Assembly: GCA_026874595.1 (NCBI GenBank)
Contig: CM049319.1
Coordinates: forward strand, 14,473,601 to 14,537,600
Direction: 5' to 3'
Origin: Sipunculus nudus
Lineage: Eukaryota; Annelida; Sipuncula; Golfingiida; Sipunculidae
Length of the DNA: 64,000 nucleotides
Below are positions 13,281 through 50,700 of this stretch, piece by piece (within the stretch, counting starts at the first letter, position 1; each line of letters starts with the position of its first letter). Under the pieces are notes generated by a model. It made no database searches. It worked only from the letters and a program-made list of their open reading frames with translations, and was not told where the DNA came from. The position numbers and the translations under genes were made by a program.

Positions 13281-16200
13281 TAAAAAAATAATAACTTACC
13301 AGTTGGAGTTGAGAGACTCAAGTAGCCACGCACTGGCAAGACCACAGACGTCCCTCCCGGCATAAAACTGATTAAAAAATCGGGGATTCCCTGGAAATAT
13401 GTATATGTTTTAATGTTTAACATATCTCTCAACGAGAACGCAAGACATAAGACGTATTATGGTTGCCCCCATTTTTTAATACAGAGTATTGAATACCGTC
13501 TTACGTACGGACGTGGGGGAAATGGTAAGAATCCAATGTTCCATATGCCTTTTAGAAATGGTAAAATATTGACACCATATCCAATGCAGTGTTAGAATAC
13601 GTCTAAGGTAGCCATATTCAGATGTTAGAAATATATGACTATGACTCAAATGTTACACTCTTATTTACTAAGATTACTGATTAAAGAATCGGGGATTCCC
13701 TGAACATATGTATATGCATTCATGTTTAACATTTCCGTCAACGAGAACGCAAGAGATGAGACGTAGTGTAGTCCCCCCCCCCCCCCCTTTTTTTTTTTCT
13801 TTATTTTTTAATATAGAGTATTGAATAGCGTCTTACTCTAACCGTGTCCTTGAAAGTAAAAATCTTCGTGTTCAGATTTTTCCAGAACAAAAAAAAACGC
13901 CTATTAATTACCATATTCTGTATGAATTCGGTGTGGTTTCACCGATGCTGACCGGAACGCAAATAAATTTGAGTGCAGTACGAACAGAGCGCGCAGGCAA
14001 CAAAATGGTATCGATCGATACCGTATTAATTTAATAAAGAGGTGTAGTGTGAAAACGGCTTAAAATAAAAACAGTAGGAGATCTTTCGTTAGACAAGTTC
14101 TCAACACCATTTGTTTTTAATTACTCACCTGAATGCACGGAGTATTTTCTGACACGTCTGAACAATTTCAACAGTTCCTCGTGGCTGCTCCGTTCCTGCC
14201 CGACCTCCATTCCCAATATTTCCTGATTCAAAAATTAAAACAATTAAGTGTTAAAATACACTTACTGATGGGCGGGGGTGGATGGCTAGAATCCAATGTC
14301 CCATATGCCTGTAAGATATGGTATAATCTTGACACCGTATCCAATGTAGTGTTAGAATACGTCAATGGTACCCATATTCAGGTGTTAGAATATATATGCA
14401 CTGTAACCTTAAGGTTACACTCGTTATTAGCCTGCTGAGATTACAGGAAGTGTTGAACTTTGTTTATTTGGACCGGAGACGGTCATATGCTCTGATTGAA
14501 TTACGATTTAAATACAAAATTATAGTAAATATGAAGAATAGGCCTATGTATCCTCAACAAACATGTTGGATTCAATGTATCGTGGACAAGAGAAAAGTTG
14601 GCATGTAGGCCTATCCGCCCAATCTAGCTTTTTTAACATTATAAGTTTACATATTCTGTGGAGGATTTAAACTATGAGTGTAAACAGAGGTGGCGGAACT
14701 AATTTTGAAGCGGGGGGGGGGGGGGGTAAGGGGGCACCATGTTCAGAAGAAATTGTCCACAGCAACAATAAGTTATCAATATATATGAATATGTCGTTGA
14801 CGTGGAAAGCTGCACGAAGTCGCGCGAAGATTAACGAAAACATCCGACGATCTGACCATGACGTCACAGACGATTTTGGATTTGTGACGTCACGTACCTA
14901 AGGAAACGTCGAAGAGGGATAATCAAGTAAACATTGTCAGTTAACGGAAACCATGCGGCCCCTACCGTTTCATGCTCTCGTGTTCAGCATCGTTTTATTC
15001 CTTTTATATACAGTCGATCACGCTGTGTCGAAGACCGAGGAACAACAGGATAGGTATTATGCTGAAAGACAACCTCGTGGGCGGGTATGGAAAAGGACCA
15101 GCGATGAGATAGAGGCGGAACGGCAGGATAGATTTGATGCTGAAAGACAACCTCGTGGGCGGGTGTGGAAACCTATATATAGAAAGCACAAAAAGACTAA
15201 AGAACAACAGGCGGCCAGAGATGAGGAGGAGGCGGAACGGCAGGATAGAATTGATGCTGAAAGACAACCTCGTGGGCGGGTATGGAAACCTATATATAGA
15301 AAGCACAAAAAGACTAAAGAACAACAGGTGGCCAGAGATGAGGAGGAGGCGGAACGGCAGGATAGAATTGATGCTGAAAGACAACCTCGTGGGCGGGTAT
15401 GGAAACCTACATATAGAAAACACAGAAGGAATAAAGAACGACAGCGCGCCAGGGATGAGGAGGAGGCGGAACGGCAGGATAGAATTGATGCTGAAAGACA
15501 ACCTCGTGGGCGGGTATGGAAACCTATATATAGAAAGCACAAAAAGACTAAAGAACAACAGGCGGCCAGGGGTGAGGAGGAGGCGGAACGGCAGGATAGA
15601 ATTGATGCTGAAAGACAACCTCGTGGGCGGGTATGGAAACCTATATATAGAAAGCACAAAAAGACTAAAGAACAACAGGCGGCTAGAGATGAGGAGGAGG
15701 CGGAACGGCAGGATAGAATTGATGCTGAAAGACAACCTCGTGGGCGGGTATGGAAACCTACATATAGAAAACACAGAAGGAATAAAGAACGACAGCGCGC
15801 CAGGGATGAGGAGGAGGCGGAACGGCAGGATAGAATTGATGCTGAAAGACAACCTCGTGGGCGGGTGTGGAAACCTATATATAGAAAGCACAAAAAGACT
15901 AAAGAACAACAGGCGGCCAGAGATGAGGAGGAGGCGGAACGGCAGGATAGAATTGATGCTGAAAGACAACCTCGTGGGCGGGTATGGAAACCCACATATA
16001 GAAAACACAGAAGGAATAAAGAACGACAGCGCGCCTGGGATGAGGAGGAGGCGGAATGGCAGGATAGAATTGATGCTGAAAGACGACCTCGTGGGCGGGT
16101 ATGGAGAGGATGAGGGAGAGGAGGAACCATAACCTCAGGCACAGGTACCAGTAATGCCGGACTCCTCCTAACAGTCAGACCCCAGCCCTGAACACTAGTA

Positions 16201-19200
16201 TGTTGATAATTTAGAAGTTAAAATTTATCTATTATAGTTCATATCGGTGAAACGTAACTCTTTGATCATCTTTAATTTCTATTAAAAAATGTATTCCATG
16301 ATTATTTCAATCAATAACTTTATATTTATCTTTAATCTAATTATTCAAACCCCTTTTATCAATGATGGAATGCGGTTCGTTTTTGGCTGAAGTATTTATT
16401 TTATATAAGTAAAATGTAAAGTTAGTATGTAAATTGAATATTCAAGGTTTCTACTAGTTTAGACAGTTCCTTTTTTAATTTAATAATTTAGGTTCGTATC
16501 AGTGAAGACAAATCTAGGCGTTAGTACCAAAGTTGTTTATGTATTTTTTACTTATTTCTTTTAACAGTGAACACTTTTGATTATTTCTTTAGCTTGAATT
16601 GACAATTTTTGGTTCGTATCATTCAAGACAAGTTTAGGTTTAGAAGTAATTAATAGTTTACATAATATTGGTGGGTTATATGAATAAACAAATATGATTT
16701 TTTTTAGTATTTTTATGAATCCTTGATAACTGGTCACATTTATATTAATTCTGAATATGAACATATCTTACGCTGCGCTTCCTTCACTCATTAACAGTGG
16801 ATTCCCGCTGAATATGATAAATATGTATAATTTACGAGGGCGTAGAATACCTTAATTTATATATGGTATACATCTGTTGTTTCTGTTATATAAAATGCAA
16901 AAACAAGTAATGCACTGTTATACATGTTTTGTATAACAACAAATGAAATAAATGACAGTTTAACTATTGTAGGAGCGTTTTAATATACTGGATGTCCGTC
17001 TTTGCGCAAGCCTTTTTGTCCGATTTTGTGCCCGCCTGCCTGTCGATCGGTCTCATGAATAGCTTGTCCGTTGTACATTTAAGTGCCTCCGCCAGAAAGG
17101 ATTGCGTTCATTCCCTTCGTGTGTGCATGTTTGTGTGTGTGTGTTTTTACATACCATTACTCACGCAATCCTGAACGAAATATCAAGAACTTTTCATGGC
17201 TTTTCGGGAATAAGCCGAAGCGAATCGATTGGAAATTTGTGTAGATCTGGCACATAATTCGGATTCAAGAGCACCATCAAGGAATATTCACCAATGTACA
17301 GTCACAAATACACTAATGTACTAGGGGATATTGACCAAATAAGTGAATCAAAATACATGGTGGAGGCTTGCATTCCAAGGAATGCCGATTTTTTTTTTCA
17401 CCTAGGAAGTAGTGGCTATAAATGATCAACTGGGCGGTTCCTGGATTTGGAAAGGGGATGGTAGCTACCGTTCAATCGAGGGAATAATACGAAATAAAAC
17501 TATCCCAGACTCGGGGAAGATTTCAGAGGGGTAGCCTTACATATTATTGAAAAACACTGCGTGTAAAAATGTAAATTCTCACAGTAAAAGGGGGGGGGGC
17601 GTTAAATTCTTAATTAGCCCCTTAGATCCATCACAGATCGATATTTACGATGTTTCGATATGAAACGGCACGTTACGTCAATAGAGCTCCCGATTTGTTT
17701 CCTGTGCTGTATCGTAATTCGGACGAGTTACATAATACATAATTACACTTACATAATAATTGTGTCCGTTGCGGATGCATTGTTTTCATCCAGACGCCGC
17801 CGCCTCCGCGTAGGTTACTCCTCCGTAACCACTGGACGGAAATTTATTAAACTTGGAATTATGATCAGGTCACATGTGAACTGCTCCGCCCTCATTTTGG
17901 GTTGACCTCTGACTTTTCCTTTCTGAAAAACGTCCATCTGTGCGTCTGTTTTTACTCATAACACCACATATCTTGGGACTCGTTAGACCAATCTTTCGTC
18001 TATTTTTACATATAACACAACATATCTTGGGACTCGTTCAACCAATCTTGCGCCTGTTTTTACACATAACACCACACATCTTGGGACTCGTTCGACCAAT
18101 CTTGCTGAAACGATGTATGGGTGTAGCTCTTGGAAAGCTTTGTTTCATACAAAAACACCTGATGGCAACACCTAATACCATTTTTGCACAGCGTCCATCT
18201 GTTCGTCTGCCTTGTTTTAAAATCACTCCTATCACTTCAGTGGTTGGACTTATCTATCTGAAATTTTGCATGCGTATACATCTTGAATAGCTTTCTCAGA
18301 TGGGGCTACCTACATTTACTTTACGCTGCAAACATCCATGCTAATGTCTCGGCCTGATATTGTGTATGCGTATAGATCACACATAGCTTTTTATCATACG
18401 CAAAACTTGTGGCGCCACCTGCAACCATGTTTGCACAGCGTCCATCTGTCTATTTGCCTTTGGTCAAAATCACTCAGGATCAAGTGAAAACAATAACCCT
18501 CACTTCGCGTAGAGTTAACAATAAATGTTCAATCCCTAGCGCTCTTACTTATGTAAAGACACAATCCTTGCGCATGCCAAACAACACTTCCGTTCTTAGA
18601 AAAAAATGGCGTCCAATAACAGACGTACTGGTGCAGAGCGGTAGCGGCACCTGGCGTCTCTTAGAGAGACTAGTATGCGTTGTGCGCTAACCTCCACGCA
18701 CGGTTAAGTTCTATTGTGCATTAAGAATAATCCCTGCTGTCAGTGACGGATTCAAGAATATTTGTCCCGACATACAGTCAGTCACTCACTTTGCATGATT
18801 AGTTAATATGAACATCATGTGACTCGAGATCCCTTGGCACTCGTGTCTTATGTCAGCAGGCTATAATGGTTAATCCTACAATTCATGCAGGTATTTCTTT
18901 TGCAATCCAGTAATGTTAAAAAAGACCACAGCAAGTGTCGCTGCCCTATCACCGTGCATTTACAGCAATTATGGCAACAATTTTATTACGTGAGCTAGCC
19001 AAGAAAGCACGTGCATAATTTTATGTTTATATTAACAATACTGCGTCACGGATATTACATCGAAGGATATATCTACAGCTTTATCAACATTTAAGATATA
19101 TATCACGGACAAATACCTTTTGTTTGTTATATTTTGCATGGATGCTGTCGACGCATACTCTATATTTTTGCTCCATTTACTTAATTTTTGTAATTTACCT

Positions 19201-23645: not shown

Positions 23646-26600
23646 TTGTGACCCTGACGGAACTTCTATGGTGAGGGGTAGGGGATCTGGCGCAGCCAAG
23701 AGGTTAAGGCACCCGACTGGAAATCGGAAGATCGTGGGTTCGATTCCTACCGGAAGTGAACCGACTTTTCAGAAGTGAACCGACTTTTCAGAAAAGTCGG
23801 TTCACTGCCGGTAGGAATCGAACCCACGATCTTCCGATACACACACGCATGCCGCCATGTGGAGTCGAAATTCCGTGACTTTATACATAATACATCCGAA
23901 ACTTTTAATACATTTAATTCTGTTATGTGTACAGATTTGAGAATTCAGCCAATGGGTTCCTTACTATGATTATTTAAGTTTTCCTTCAATACAATAATCG
24001 TCTGCTACACTTGTATAATTTTACATACCTTACTTGGTCATTAGTGGAGTTTGTAGCTTTTCCACAGAATTCCAAAATCATTCTCTTCTTGTTGGCTGCC
24101 TTTTGCCATCCAAAACAAGATGACAGTGGACTGTCCTCGTTTCAAGCGGTAACTGTGATTGACCAGCAAGCAAATCTCACATGGAGTTATAGGATAACTG
24201 TGGCAGGGCTAAAGGGTCTCAGCATCACAGCCTGGCACTGACTCCCTTTTCCCTCTCTGTATGTAAGATCATTTTTGTATAAAAATTAAAAAGTTCCCCC
24301 TAGTTGAAAGCTAGATTCGTTCCAACCCTGCCGAGCGTTACTCAATTGGTATGGTGGTGAAGGCCAAACGGATACCGTGTCTTGAGCCTCTCAGCCAATC
24401 ATACCAGCTGGCCATAACAGCGCGGGGTACCAGTCTAAGTGAGCTAATATATGACAGGATGTACCTTTAGGACTTCCGGTTGCTTGAACTCGAGCACTTT
24501 GCTTCCTCTGGCCCCGGCCTGGATCAGCTCCTCCTGGACCATCAGGTCGTGGACGTTCTGTAGAAATTCCACCTCCTCCTCAGTCACTACAGAACTCGCT
24601 AAAATAAACCAAAGATCCCCACATTAAATCAGTTTCACATAGGGTATATTTTATTGACAGTTTAGAACTACACAAATCAGTCAAATAAACCGACCGTTTC
24701 AGTAAATCTTGAAGGTGTCTTGGATCAGGCAATTACTAATTCGACGGGAAAATTCAGGCAATTTAAAAACTGACTGAATTCGTACACTGGTTGTAAGTTA
24801 AACTCATTGCTTGCTGCGCACTGCTGCTTAATATTCCTTCTGTATCTATAATTGTTGAAAGCAAAGTTTCTCATATAATAACAAGTGCGTAAGAGAAAAA
24901 ATGCGTAAACTTTAAAAAAAAATACAGGTGGCTCCACCAGTCTGCAGAAACTGATGAAACACTCCACAATCAATATCCATGCAAAGAATCATGGTGATCT
25001 CTGCATTAGTTGTTCAGATACTTCAGCTTTTGTATCAAATTGTCCATTATTCTGAGGGATACTTCGGAGTCCTAAAGCTTAAAGGATATGGGAAACAGAG
25101 ACCTAATTTCAGGTTTCCACAGACACTTTTCATGGGCCTCCTTGCATGACAAGAATGAAGATTTTAGGTCCAGTTGTTACGATTTGTTCCCTGTTGACAG
25201 ATAACCACGTCTTTAAAGGTCTCAAAAATAGAGAGAAAAAATCGTAAAAATTTGAAAAAATAGAGGTGGCGCCACCAGTCTGCAAAAACTGATGGAACAC
25301 CTCATGATCAATATGTATGCCAAATTCATTACCATCAGTGTTGTAGTTATTCAGATACTGCAGTTTTTGTATAAAATTTTCCACTATTCTGGGGGGTATT
25401 TTAGAGCCTTACAGCTTAAAGGATATGGATAACAGAGACCTAATTTCAGGTTTCCATGGAGACTTTTCATTGGTCTCCCTGTGTGTCAAGAATGAAGATT
25501 CTAGGTCCAGTTGTTATGATTTGTTAACAGATGTTTATATCTTTAAAGTTCTCAAAATAGAATTAATTCGTAAAAAAAAAACCCGAACAAATACAGGTGG
25601 TGCCACCAGTCTGCAGGAACTGATGAAACACTCCATGATAAATATCCATGCAAACAATTTTAGTGATCTCTGTATTAGTTGTTAAGATAATTTATCTTTT
25701 GTATCAAATTTTCCATTATTCTGGGGGGTAATTGGGAGCCCCATAGCTCAAAGGATATGGGTAACAGAGACCTAATTTCTGGTTTCCCAGGAGATTTTTC
25801 ACATTCTAGGTCCAACGGTTACGATTTGTGCCTGGTTAACGGACAGACGGACGACGGACAAAGAGTGATCACTATAGCTCAGATATCTTACAGTCAGCTG
25901 AGCTAAAAATACTTGAAAGATGTGTAATCTGTTTTAATCTTACATATTTGCTTGAAAAACGATAACAAATATTCTTTGACTTATTCGAATGGACAGAAAT
26001 TTAGAGGAACGCGATTAGGCCCAGATACCATCTACACTACATACACTAAGTTTCTTTCGAGGTATTAAAGGCCAAAGTACTCCTGTCTTGGTATACCCAT
26101 AAACACCAGGAAGCACTGGGCTGTATCGAACTCCTTAATATGTAAATCCTGTGTCGTCTGCTGTTGGCGTAGGTATTATGTTTTTCCCTATTTCATTTGG
26201 TTTGTCTGTTAGCAACTTTATGAAAACAGATTTTTATCAAATCTGTAGAGGGTTAGTAAATACACTCAGAGGACACTCAATTAAACTCTGGTGGTAACCT
26301 GAAACACCATGATATTTTATTGTTATTTAAAGATTTTATATGTCTTATTGTGACACAAGGTAGCCGTGACAACCCGACTCAGTAGGCAATCGGATAATTG
26401 GACTGGTAAGCCTACTCGAGTCGTGATCCAAGTTATATCTAGGAATGTATCGCAGTGGTCTTGCATCGGGTTGCATTCATATCGTGGTAAACAGCCCAAA
26501 ATCTCAAAATTATGCTTAAAAATAATGAATTTACACAATAGTATACATGTGAGCTCACAACCAAAACTGAAACACCGTCTCCATGGACACGGGTCATTTC

Positions 26601-28630: not shown

Positions 28631-28659
28631 TGTACAAATACACAGTGAGGTTGGGAATC

Positions 28660-28738
28660 TGTCATGGCCAAGTGGACTAAGGCAGCCGCACCGGAAATCG
28701 GAAGATCGTGGGTTCGAATCCCACTGGCAGTGAACCAC
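28660..28738 (+). mobile_element. tRNA-derived SINE head
   Basis: 'catggccaagtggactaagg' is A-box-like, 'caccggaaatcgg' is anticodon-arm-like, and 'gtgggttcgaatcccac' is the B-box and T arm. It is the same family as 23685. The frame reading [18 protein letters not shown] over it is a spurious translation of the SINE. Confidence 0.75.
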
Positions 28739-28760
28739 TTTTCTGTGTATACTCTTTCCA

Positions 28761-47734: not shown

Positions 47735-50700
47735 GGATCGGTTGTTTGGCTCATACAAGACAACCTCACCTGTACGCACGGAGAATTTTCTCACCCGACT
47801 AAACATTTCCAGCAGTTCTTCGTGACCAATCGGTTCCGGCCCGACTTCCAGTCCGAGTATTTCCTGATAACATAATCAAGATATGTGTCTGATTATAAAA
47901 AGTTAGTGAAGATTGGTATATCGCAGAGGCAGAAGACGCGGACCAGAAAAAAATATTATAATAGATGTAATTTGACCATTAGAGGTGTCAGAATCCATGT
48001 ACCGTTCCCCTGTTTTAGAATCAAGCTGCCTTACTCAAAAGAAGTGTTAGAATAGAGGTGCCCTTGCCAACAGAATTGTTAGAATCCTGGCGCCCTGACC
48101 AATAAAAATGTAATCATGCAAGTGTCGTGATTAATAGTAGTGTAAGAATCAATATACTGTGTTCAGCAGAAATGTTGGTATCCATATAATGTGTTCAGCA
48201 GAAGTATTAGAATTAAAATGCCCTGACCCATAAAGTATAAGAATACTTGTGTCTTGTCTGAGAGCAGTGCTAGAATCAATATACCGTGATCAGCAGAGGT
48301 GTTAGAATCCAGTTATCACCAGTAATAGTGTTGGAATCCATCTACCGTGACCAATACATGTGTTGGATTCATTGACTGTGATAAATAGAAGTGTTAAGAT
48401 CAATATTCCGCGATTAATAGAAGAGTTAGAATCTATGGACCGCAACCAATCGCAGTGCTAGATTTAAGGTGCCATAAGAAATAGTAATTTTAGTATGTAG
48501 GTGTAGTGACGCACAGAAATAATAGTTTCCGTGTGCCGTTACCACAAATTAAATAGTACAGTAATTATTTAGAAAAAAAATCATCGCAATACCTTACAAA
48601 AACTTTGAATGAAAAACATGAGAAAATAGAAACCTGCATTTCAAGGAATGCAAGCCTCTGCCATGTTGCGGGTCTCTATTGTTGAAGACTCCTTAACCCC
48701 TGTTTGCAGTCTCTTTTTCGGCCCATATTCATAGGTTCATTAGTGCATAAGTGACTGAACATTTGTGAATATACCTTTATGATGTTCCTGAATCCGGATC
48801 ATGTGAGGGTTCCATACCAAAATTCATTCGGTTCTCCATTTAACCATTCCCGATAAAGCCTGAAGGTTTCATGACATTCCGTCCATGGGTCACACTTCTG
48901 GCGGCACCGAGGCTTTCATGCCTTTTTTTAATTGGTCGGTTTTGTTTTAATTGGAGCTCCGTGGGAGAGGCCAACTGTAAGAATGCTCTGGGGAGACGAC
49001 TACTCACTTCGGAACTGAAAGCACTGGAGACCCTCACTCCTAAGTTCTGGGCGTTTGACCGTAACCTGAACGGGTGGGCAGGCCCGCGTCGGGCACAAGG
49101 CTCAACCGTTTTGCATTCACTTATTTTTTGGCCTTTTTTCCCAGGTTCATTCGTGCATAAGTGACTGTTCATTTGTGAATATTCCTTGATGACAGTCAAG
49201 AATCCAGAGCAGATGTTGGATCCACACCGAAATCTTATCAATCCTGCCTTGGCCACTTCCCGGAATGCTCTGAGAATTGCATGAGATTCCGTTAAAGACT
49301 GCGCGAGTTATGTTGTGAACAAATCACACAGAATCACACGTACGGGAATGAACGCATACCCTATATTGTTTTTTTTCCACGACATTTTGACAGAAAAAGT
49401 GGGGCAAAGGACGGCCGGCCCGGGTTCTGACAGAAGTTGAGTGGATGTTGGTTACAGTTTGTTACATAAATATTATAAAATATATCGTCAGGTACTAGAC
49501 GCCATGTAACCCTGATAGTTCATGAAAAGACACCCAGAAAATTAACAGAAATGAAAATCATAAAATTTAAAAGTATTTAACTTCATAATGCTCATACTGC
49601 TCGGCCTTTGTTACAGAACGAACAGAAATGGACGTCTTTCATAAGTTTTACCAAATACCGACTGGTGCCTAAAAAGTTTGACAGATTATAGTATGATGGC
49701 GTACCTTTAGGACTTCCGGTTGCTGGAACTCGATAACTTTCGAACTCGCCTGGACCAGTTCTTCCTGGACCATCAGGTCATGGACCCTCTGAAGAAATTC
49801 TACCTCCTCTTTACTCACTACAGAACTCGCTAAAACAAACCAAAAATCCTTATTATAATTTTCTGTTCGTGGAACCTAACCAGTTTCAATCAATTTATGA
49901 CATAGTATAAAATTTCCTTACACCTTCAGTTTGCAGTAAAAGACTGATTGGCAAACCATCTTCAGGGTCTCGCACTTAACTGATGCCTTCAGTTTGTGAC
50001 AGAGGATACGCTCCTGGCGCAGCAGTTATATACTGCAGTCGTCCCAGATCTCCTCTCGTGTAACCGCTGTTTTGTACATTGGACACAGCTTTACAAGTAA
50101 AGAAATACAGCTCAAACAATAAAAATTATTGCAATACACTTGGGGGGGGGGGATGAGAATAATTTTACACCTGTGACTGCAGGGATGCTCGACCAATGTC
50201 GCATCACCAATAAGCTTACAGGGCTGTAGTGACCAGAGGTGGGCGGCCTACGAAATATAGCCTACGAAAATAAAATACTTCCATAACTAGCTTAACCTTT
50301 TAGCAATTATTTTCAAATTTAGAATTTGACAGATTAAATTATTATGTGTACCTGCCGTGAAAATTAAATCAAATGAACTTAACAGGGGAATAAAACGTGC
50401 AATGGTCAAAGCTGGGCAAAATTTAAGGTACTAATTGTATATTTATGCAAACGACTTCAAAACATTCCAAAATTAAGATCTTATTTGGGGTATTCAATTA
50501 AATTTTGATTAAATAAAGCTATATCCCTAAAAAAAAGTCTCTAGCTGGAAAAAATTTTCATGTTAAGTGAGTAAATATTTTTCTATATTTTTACAAAGTG
50601 CATTTTGTCTTGGCCCATAACTTTTAAAACATTTAGTAATACTGACCGAATTTCTGGTATCTATACAAGTACTTTATAAGGCAATACTTATGATAAAAAT

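Follow-up and report, generated by a model that had tools for sequence, protein, structure and literature searches.

The open reading frame at 14953-16113 on the plus strand is almost certainly a real gene belonging to a real family. The reading that we favour, and to which we give about an even chance, is that it has one exon, comes from a small family in rapid change, and codes for a scaffold-like secreted protein, made of strongly charged repeats, free of cysteine and functioning whole. Coordinates below refer to the window, meaning the whole 64,000-nucleotide stretch of DNA that was analysed. Within the open reading frame the following parts were distinguished.

14953..16113, plus strand: ORF of the putative secreted charged-repeat protein, 386 aa, ATG to TGA, from ORF translation
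14953..15030, plus strand: signal peptide, from a hydropathy/cleavage score and a dN/dS of 0.11-0.73 in 6/6 pairs
15031..15150, plus strand: N-terminal partial unit and a 26-aa unit of a second type, the type also being N-terminal in paralog C12a
15151..16086, plus strand: eight 39-aa units, from repeat analysis and unit comparison
16087..16113, plus strand: tenth PRGRVW motif, then RG and TGA, from translation

A sequence-only reading had described this ORF as one with a signal peptide and ten PRGRVW motifs, containing eight near-identical, cysteine-free repeats of 39 residues, and all of this was borne out. The 386 residues open with a signal-peptide-like start and hold no cysteine at all; the ten motifs are spaced by 26 aa once and by 39 aa eight times; and the eight full units fall into two kinds, A and B, in the order A A B A A B A B, with 0-3 base differences within A and 0-4 within B. 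The last full unit carries two R-to-W changes. The alternation of a cationic block with an acidic spacer was seen too: both kinds alternate a +7 block with a -4 block. One unit has GEEEAE, and DEEEAE is absent before the first two motif copies, the second of which is preceded by DEIEAE. The first PRGRVW copy heads the 26-aa unit; we considered that this unit might be a deletion of the 39-aa one and dropped the idea, paralog C12a having 26-aa units of the same type. Across the eight units no amino-acid variant was found in the 7-codon motif, four were found in the 17-codon acidic part and seven in the 15-codon stretch round the basic pairs. Charged residues make up 51% of the protein, the net charge is +32, and the G+C content of the array is 47-52%, compared with 25-44% in the flanking 300-base windows.

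The gene had also been placed antisense in an intron of a decarboxylase, and this position was upheld. The two exons concerned are as follows.

14124..14227, minus strand: exon of decarboxylase copy 1 that flanks the host intron on its 3' side, from sequence comparison
24461..24618, minus strand: exon of decarboxylase copy 1 that flanks the host intron on its 5' side, its limits taken from the BLAST match

Joined together with the next exon, these two match CSAD (6zek) with an E of 4.7e-17. They are consecutive, and the repeat gene is therefore nested antisense inside a ~10.2 kb intron of a CSAD/GADL1-like gene, copy 1. The equivalent intron of copy 2 (~47869-49700, 1.8 kb) gave no match to the repeat gene region better than E 1.3. 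The two copies of this acidic amino acid decarboxylase lie in tandem (window 3450-49849, minus strand) and their matching stretches, presumed to be exons, are 74-88% identical. The window further contains a tandem satellite with a period of 158/314 bp (270-1355), with satellite-related stretches near 20.7-21.3, 24.9-25.9 and 51.9-52.4 kb, and two tRNA-like stretches (23677-23770 and 28649-28743; Rfam RF00005), mutually 82% identical, that are probably a tRNA-derived SINE; ARAGORN found no tRNA gene.

A search of the genome (1.43 Gb in 153 contigs; 107 of 127 candidates scored) returned 17 matches at E <= 0.001, and 16 of them fall in six loci on three contigs.

C14:14.49 Mb: window locus, 386 aa
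C14:33.05 Mb: C14b, nearest relative of the window locus, 5' part reads N
C5:74.90 Mb: C5 locus, 897 aa
C12:19.31 Mb: C12 locus, 605 aa
C12:18.96 Mb: C12 locus, 685 aa
C12:18.97 Mb: C12 locus, short, 198 aa

The seventeenth match (C5:91.56 Mb), with 18% identity and 20 stops, was dropped as chance. Over the 5' part of the nearest paralog runs a block of exactly 2500 N (L010 1473-3972). When the 685-aa paralog was used as query, the 11 matches comprised the window, the three C12 loci and one leaderless fragment. A leaderless family fragment (L012 1085-1795, minus strand) lies beside the 685-aa gene, behind a poly-Leu/Ile low-complexity run, and its C-terminal end MKGWFTFV..KIF is also found in the 685-aa paralog. 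Shortened family copies occur on C12. Using three family proteins, tblastn detected no further member in C12 18.920-19.1375 Mb (~217 kb), and the 168 kb up to 19.305 Mb were covered by the genome searches only. None of the five complete family ORFs contains a cysteine, and their net charge ranges from +5 to +106. No relatives of the family were found in viral_contigs or genome_contigs, the collections of viral and prokaryote sequence.

These loci have a cassette in common at the 5' end of the gene, wherever that end can be read.

14790..14952, plus strand: 5' block (promoter/5'UTR), common to those five members of the family whose 5' end is readable
14859..14866, either strand: first TGACGTCA (CRE-type) site, at -94 in the window and -93 in four paralogs
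14885..14892, either strand: second TGACGTCA (CRE-type) site, at -68 in the window and -67 in four paralogs

In the 1.43 Gb genome, window 14790-15035 matches five places, itself and four paralogs, with 84-87% identity (all five candidates were scored). The cassette of ~240 bases, made of two TGACGTCA sites 26 bp apart, the 5'UTR and the signal peptide, starts near -160 and runs through the signal peptide, with 77-97% pairwise identity among the five loci whose 5' end can be read; to its left, homology stops at TA-rich DNA. The window as a whole has five TGACGTCA sites against 0.55 expected, a number reached in 0 of 100 shuffles. Factors of the CREB/ATF kind bind sites of this type. As for the signal peptide, the start at 14953 ranks first, on a home-made hydropathy/cleavage score and not SignalP, among the window's 64 ATG ORFs that reach 60 aa and also among its 257 ATGs with at least 40 open codons. 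By our reading the peptide would be cut after AVS, whereas the script's best cut falls after residue 20. In all six pairs that can be formed from four family members dN is below dS (C5, one codon shorter, was excluded), and dN/dS is 0.11-0.42 in the three pairs that include the window. The signal peptide is conserved and constrained. Since the cassette and the 3' flank occur at few places in the genome, in searches that skip simple repeats and very common words, we are dealing with a small gene family and not with a high-copy element. A mobile element was considered, the left end of homology being alike in all pairs while the right ends differ; the small number of copies speaks against it.

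Behind the cassette the repeats vary in number and in unit length (39 aa in the window, 20 and 39 in C5, 54 in C12a, 153 in C12b, and 26 for the second type, with which both the window gene and C12a begin N-terminally), round a module that they share. The consensus of this module spans an acidic stretch, a hinge and a basic TYRKH stretch. The whole module, and not just its peptide-like part, is common to the family. A13, R15, Y26 and H29 are invariant in twelve modules from six loci; however, the twelve rows were chosen by hand to hold the TY..H core and the counting pattern demands Y and H, making the evidence for TY..H from counts and rows circular. Independent support comes from the arrays themselves, which split into even units, none of which lacks the core. 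A single-sequence AlphaFold2 model predicts a helix of 29-32 residues in each of the eight full units, with the basic pairs inside the helices and the stretch around QPRGRVW as a joint. This model, run without an alignment, has a mean pLDDT of 69.7, which makes the helix-joint arrangement weak, and a pTM of 0.21; charged helices are easily predicted.

We then looked at codon statistics inside the repeats. The dN/dS was 0.5 in the window, 0.5 in C12a, 0.9 in C5, 1.19 in C12b and 1.43 between the window and C5, unit pairs being non-independent and possibly subject to conversion of one unit by another. In the shifted and minus frames, values for C5 and for window against C5 ranged from 0.39 to 1.63 and were often similar or lower. 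By these statistics the repeats are without clear purifying selection, meaning that they may drift. Likewise, when the repeats were tested for coding by their codons, the plus frame did not stand out, and the case for coding thus rests on promoter, leader and open frames. The 39-aa unit is open in four of the six frames, so that openness by itself is weak proof of coding. The readable family members nevertheless have long frames that are kept open: when the observed substitutions were placed at random (2000 trials), the frame stayed open in 722 trials for the 8 units of the window, 172 for the 19 of C5, 122 for the 8 of C12a and 25 for the 3 of C12b.

The C-terminus differs from that of the paralogs, as does the extent of the 3' homology.

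16109..16132, plus strand: what is left, out of frame, of the acidic C-terminal end typical of the family, to the shared TAA
16133..19568, plus strand: 3' flank, homologous to the paralog loci over several kb, with gaps; its right-hand end differs between pairs

The terminal 'VWRG' of the window ORF is set by an 8-base gap relative to the paralogs, and because of this gap the TAA that they have in common (16130-16132) lies out of frame, 19 bases past the window ORF's stop. None of 2941 random 50-mers from the window scored as high as the match of the C-terminal remainder. C5 and C12a end early for other reasons and C14b reads through to the shared stop, so that three loci out of the four that have this kind of 3' end show a disrupted C-terminus, which makes decay possible. 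In the window the change may reflect relaxed constraint at the very end of the protein, or else the onset of decay. In the 3' flank AATAAA is present at 16683 and 16947, and 16134-16940 matches five genome places, itself included, in six pieces. A 54-bp minisatellite of three copies (17936-18105) lies within the part of the flank common to the paralog loci. A remnant of the family 3' flank, 68-76% identical, was seen at L017/C12:18953753-18954566 (minus strand), and tblastn found no family ORF beside it.

The sequence-only reading had gone on to interpret the ORF as a possible multi-peptide precursor, whose cleavage could yield QPRGRVWKP(I/T)Y-type peptides. On this view convertases would cut each unit and free many copies of a neuropeptide or antimicrobial peptide round that sequence. 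The secreted, repetitive, cysteine-free and antisense-in-intron parts of that interpretation stood, but the precursor part was weakened, and we now consider it a doubtful, though appreciable, possibility. It agrees with the signal peptide, the near-identical copies and the acidic spacers. In the window a basic pair follows each of the first nine motifs (KR at 47, then RK and KK/RR) and the chain end follows the tenth; KK and RR interchange between kinds A and B, and both basic pairs are kept in 9/9 C12a units. Two CRE-type sites would suit a neuropeptide gene, CREs being linked with such genes. Moreover, R-x-x-R is present within 18 residues before the core in 40 of the 49 units counted, which leaves room for processing. 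In contrast, PRGRVW and RQPR are confined to the window locus and C14b (kept in its 3/3 readable units) and precede none of the 38 TY..H cores of the four other loci (C5 23, C12a 9, C12b 4, C12c 2). A pair at core positions 8-9 is found in 9 of these 38, all of C12a (0/23 in C5, 0/4 in C12b, 0/2 in C12c), while a pair at positions 5-6 is found in 9/9 units of C12a, 17/23 of C5, 0/4 of C12b and 0/2 of C12c; a Trp precedes the core in 22/23 units of C5 and 1/15 of the C12 loci. There is no strict R-X-[KR]-R, nor do the full units of the window hold a G-[KR][KR] amidation site (0/8; 2/9 in C12a), and on the N-terminal side the window motifs have monobasic sites only, the last copy excepted. Seven of the dibasic products would be near-neutral 34-mers of net charge -1 to +1, the others being two shorter near-neutral N-terminal pieces, one acidic 22-mer and single His residues; the clearly cationic product of cutting at runs of at least two basic residues is the last fragment, the 8-mer PRGRVWRG (+3). 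The acidic 'spacer', furthermore, belongs to the shared module as much as the 'peptide' does. Cleavage sites are thus mostly not kept in the paralogs, and it is the presence of PRGRVW/RQPR in two loci only, together with a basic pair in just 9 of the 38 other units, that weakens the precursor. A secreted structural protein, which had been named as the main alternative, is in our judgement the better reading.

A product acting whole might also be a defence or reproductive effector, a secreted cationic repeat protein binding microbes or gametes. We think this unlikely: the conserved signal peptide in front of repeats with a dN/dS of 0.9-1.43 (C5, C12b, window against C5) and the positive net charge of all five complete ORFs would fit, but high ratios can also come from relaxed constraint or from gene conversion among units, the ratio is 0.5 within the window and within C12a, and nothing ties the gene to immune or gonad expression. 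It is less probable still that the window copy is a decaying or dispensable duplicate on its way to becoming a pseudogene. The C-terminal frameshift, the other disruptions in C5 and C12a, the shortened copies on C12 and the near-neutral codon statistics of the repeats point that way; the main frame, however, is open across 386 codons, and both the promoter and leader, 84-87% identical to the paralogs, and the low signal-peptide ratios of the window argue against it. Finally, a non-coding tandem repeat open by chance would account for a unit open in four frames, for a codon test that does not prefer the plus frame and for a period divisible by 3, which chance alone gives once in three; yet the array starts right behind a signal peptide that recurs with its promoter in four other loci, and the paralogs have open frames of 897, 605 and 685 codons, which makes this explanation very improbable.

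For the favoured reading, that of a charged repeat protein working whole, we propose the following mechanism. bZIP factors of the CREB/ATF kind would switch the family genes on together in one secretory cell type, and the signal peptide would be removed, the protein remaining whole. Each module would form one charged helix of ~30 residues, with QPxGxVW as a flexible joint, so that the protein would be a string of rods whose basic and acidic parts alternate. As a multivalent polyampholyte it would be expected to bind mineral or polymers that are sulfated or acidic, and to self-associate; the Tyr and His that recur in every array unit are candidate cross-linking or metal-binding positions. The number and length of units would tune reach and valency, which would explain their free variation between paralogs. 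Tentatively, the family may represent a new kind of animal gene for multi-copy secreted peptides or effectors, with one conserved leader cassette. If so, a leader made of a twin CRE-type promoter, 5'UTR and signal peptide drives a freely changing body whose unit measures 20 to 153 residues and is built about a fixed TYxxH core, and one secretory programme would deliver fast-diversifying multivalent products. What was an isolated odd ORF is now one member of a small gene family whose promoter block, leader and module are defined. With its conserved leader cassette and a body in which the units change in length and number, the family offers a clean example of the origin and diversification of secreted repeat proteins, and the charged helix-joint module, in which Tyr and His are constant, could be used as a model polyampholyte.

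The earlier remark that no named family was recognised agrees with our searches of Pfam, the PDB and the open literature. Among 5.39 million open papers, none contained the module sequence string or any of six family strings. The module profile had no match in the PDB; the whole protein had 20 weak ones (best E 0.033), nearly all to ribosomal protein eL42, and these look compositional. Three Pfam matches passed the curated cut-offs, namely Phage_tail_S (PF05069), DUF1412 in the +2 frame and Phage_Arf in C5, and all were set aside. For Phage_tail_S the whole protein scored 28.4 bits but single copies stayed under the 24.3 cut-off (a 52-aa piece from the N-terminal part reached 18.1 bits and one module 14.3, with E <= 0.1 in 3 of 12 modules), so that a weak resemblance remains; for DUF1412 and Phage_Arf no single stretch passed the E limit and the matches were taken as sums over repeats. 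Passing a curated Pfam cut-off is misleading for tandem repeat proteins such as these (window 14953-16113, L009 2928-5618). Two queries against PHROGs each had a single weak match (E 0.0016 and 0.068), with no stretch passing.

Three known systems are close enough in layout to be compared. Like the molluscan multi-copy neuropeptide precursors (PMC4200219, PMC5996578, as far as their available text describes them), the window ORF has an N-terminal signal peptide, here by a home-made score, with repeated copies and basic pairs; unlike them, its full units have no amidation site, the C-terminal Gly being common though not universal in such precursors, and the basic pairs are not kept in most paralogs. 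Neuropeptide precursors carry mono- or dibasic cleavage sites flanking each peptide; in the window the basic pairs stand on the C-terminal side. GRVW and RVWKP do not occur in the main text, as available, of these two papers. The apidaecin-type precursors of proline-rich antimicrobial peptides are pre-pro-polyproteins with many near-identical copies, as is the window ORF, and in the available parts of PMC11549390 and PMC11678341 they are likewise secreted, with tandem copies and acidic spacers. The window ORF differs in having neither the RREAEPEAEP spacer (no EAEP is present) nor the PRPPHPRL end (PMC11549390, same parts). Proline-rich antimicrobial peptides are there given as 14-49% proline, some with PRP motifs (PMC11678341), whereas the window unit has 2 Pro in 39 residues and no PRP; an assumed released peptide of 11 residues would have 2/11. 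The third system is that of the molluscan shell matrix and mantle secretome proteins with repetitive low-complexity domains (RLCDs), as described in the available part of PMC4897951. These are usually Gly/Ala-rich, with most repeats around 10 aa and others of 75-200 aa, whereas the window protein is R/E/K-rich, with Gly at 3.1%, Ala at 8.5% and a 39-aa unit. It does have the signal peptide and the tandem repeats of biased composition that go with RLCD proteins; acidic repeats are among the kinds described, and the mantle repeats are thought to vary by slippage (PMC4897951, same part). Like the family reported here, these proteins are secreted, lineage-restricted and built of modular repeats.
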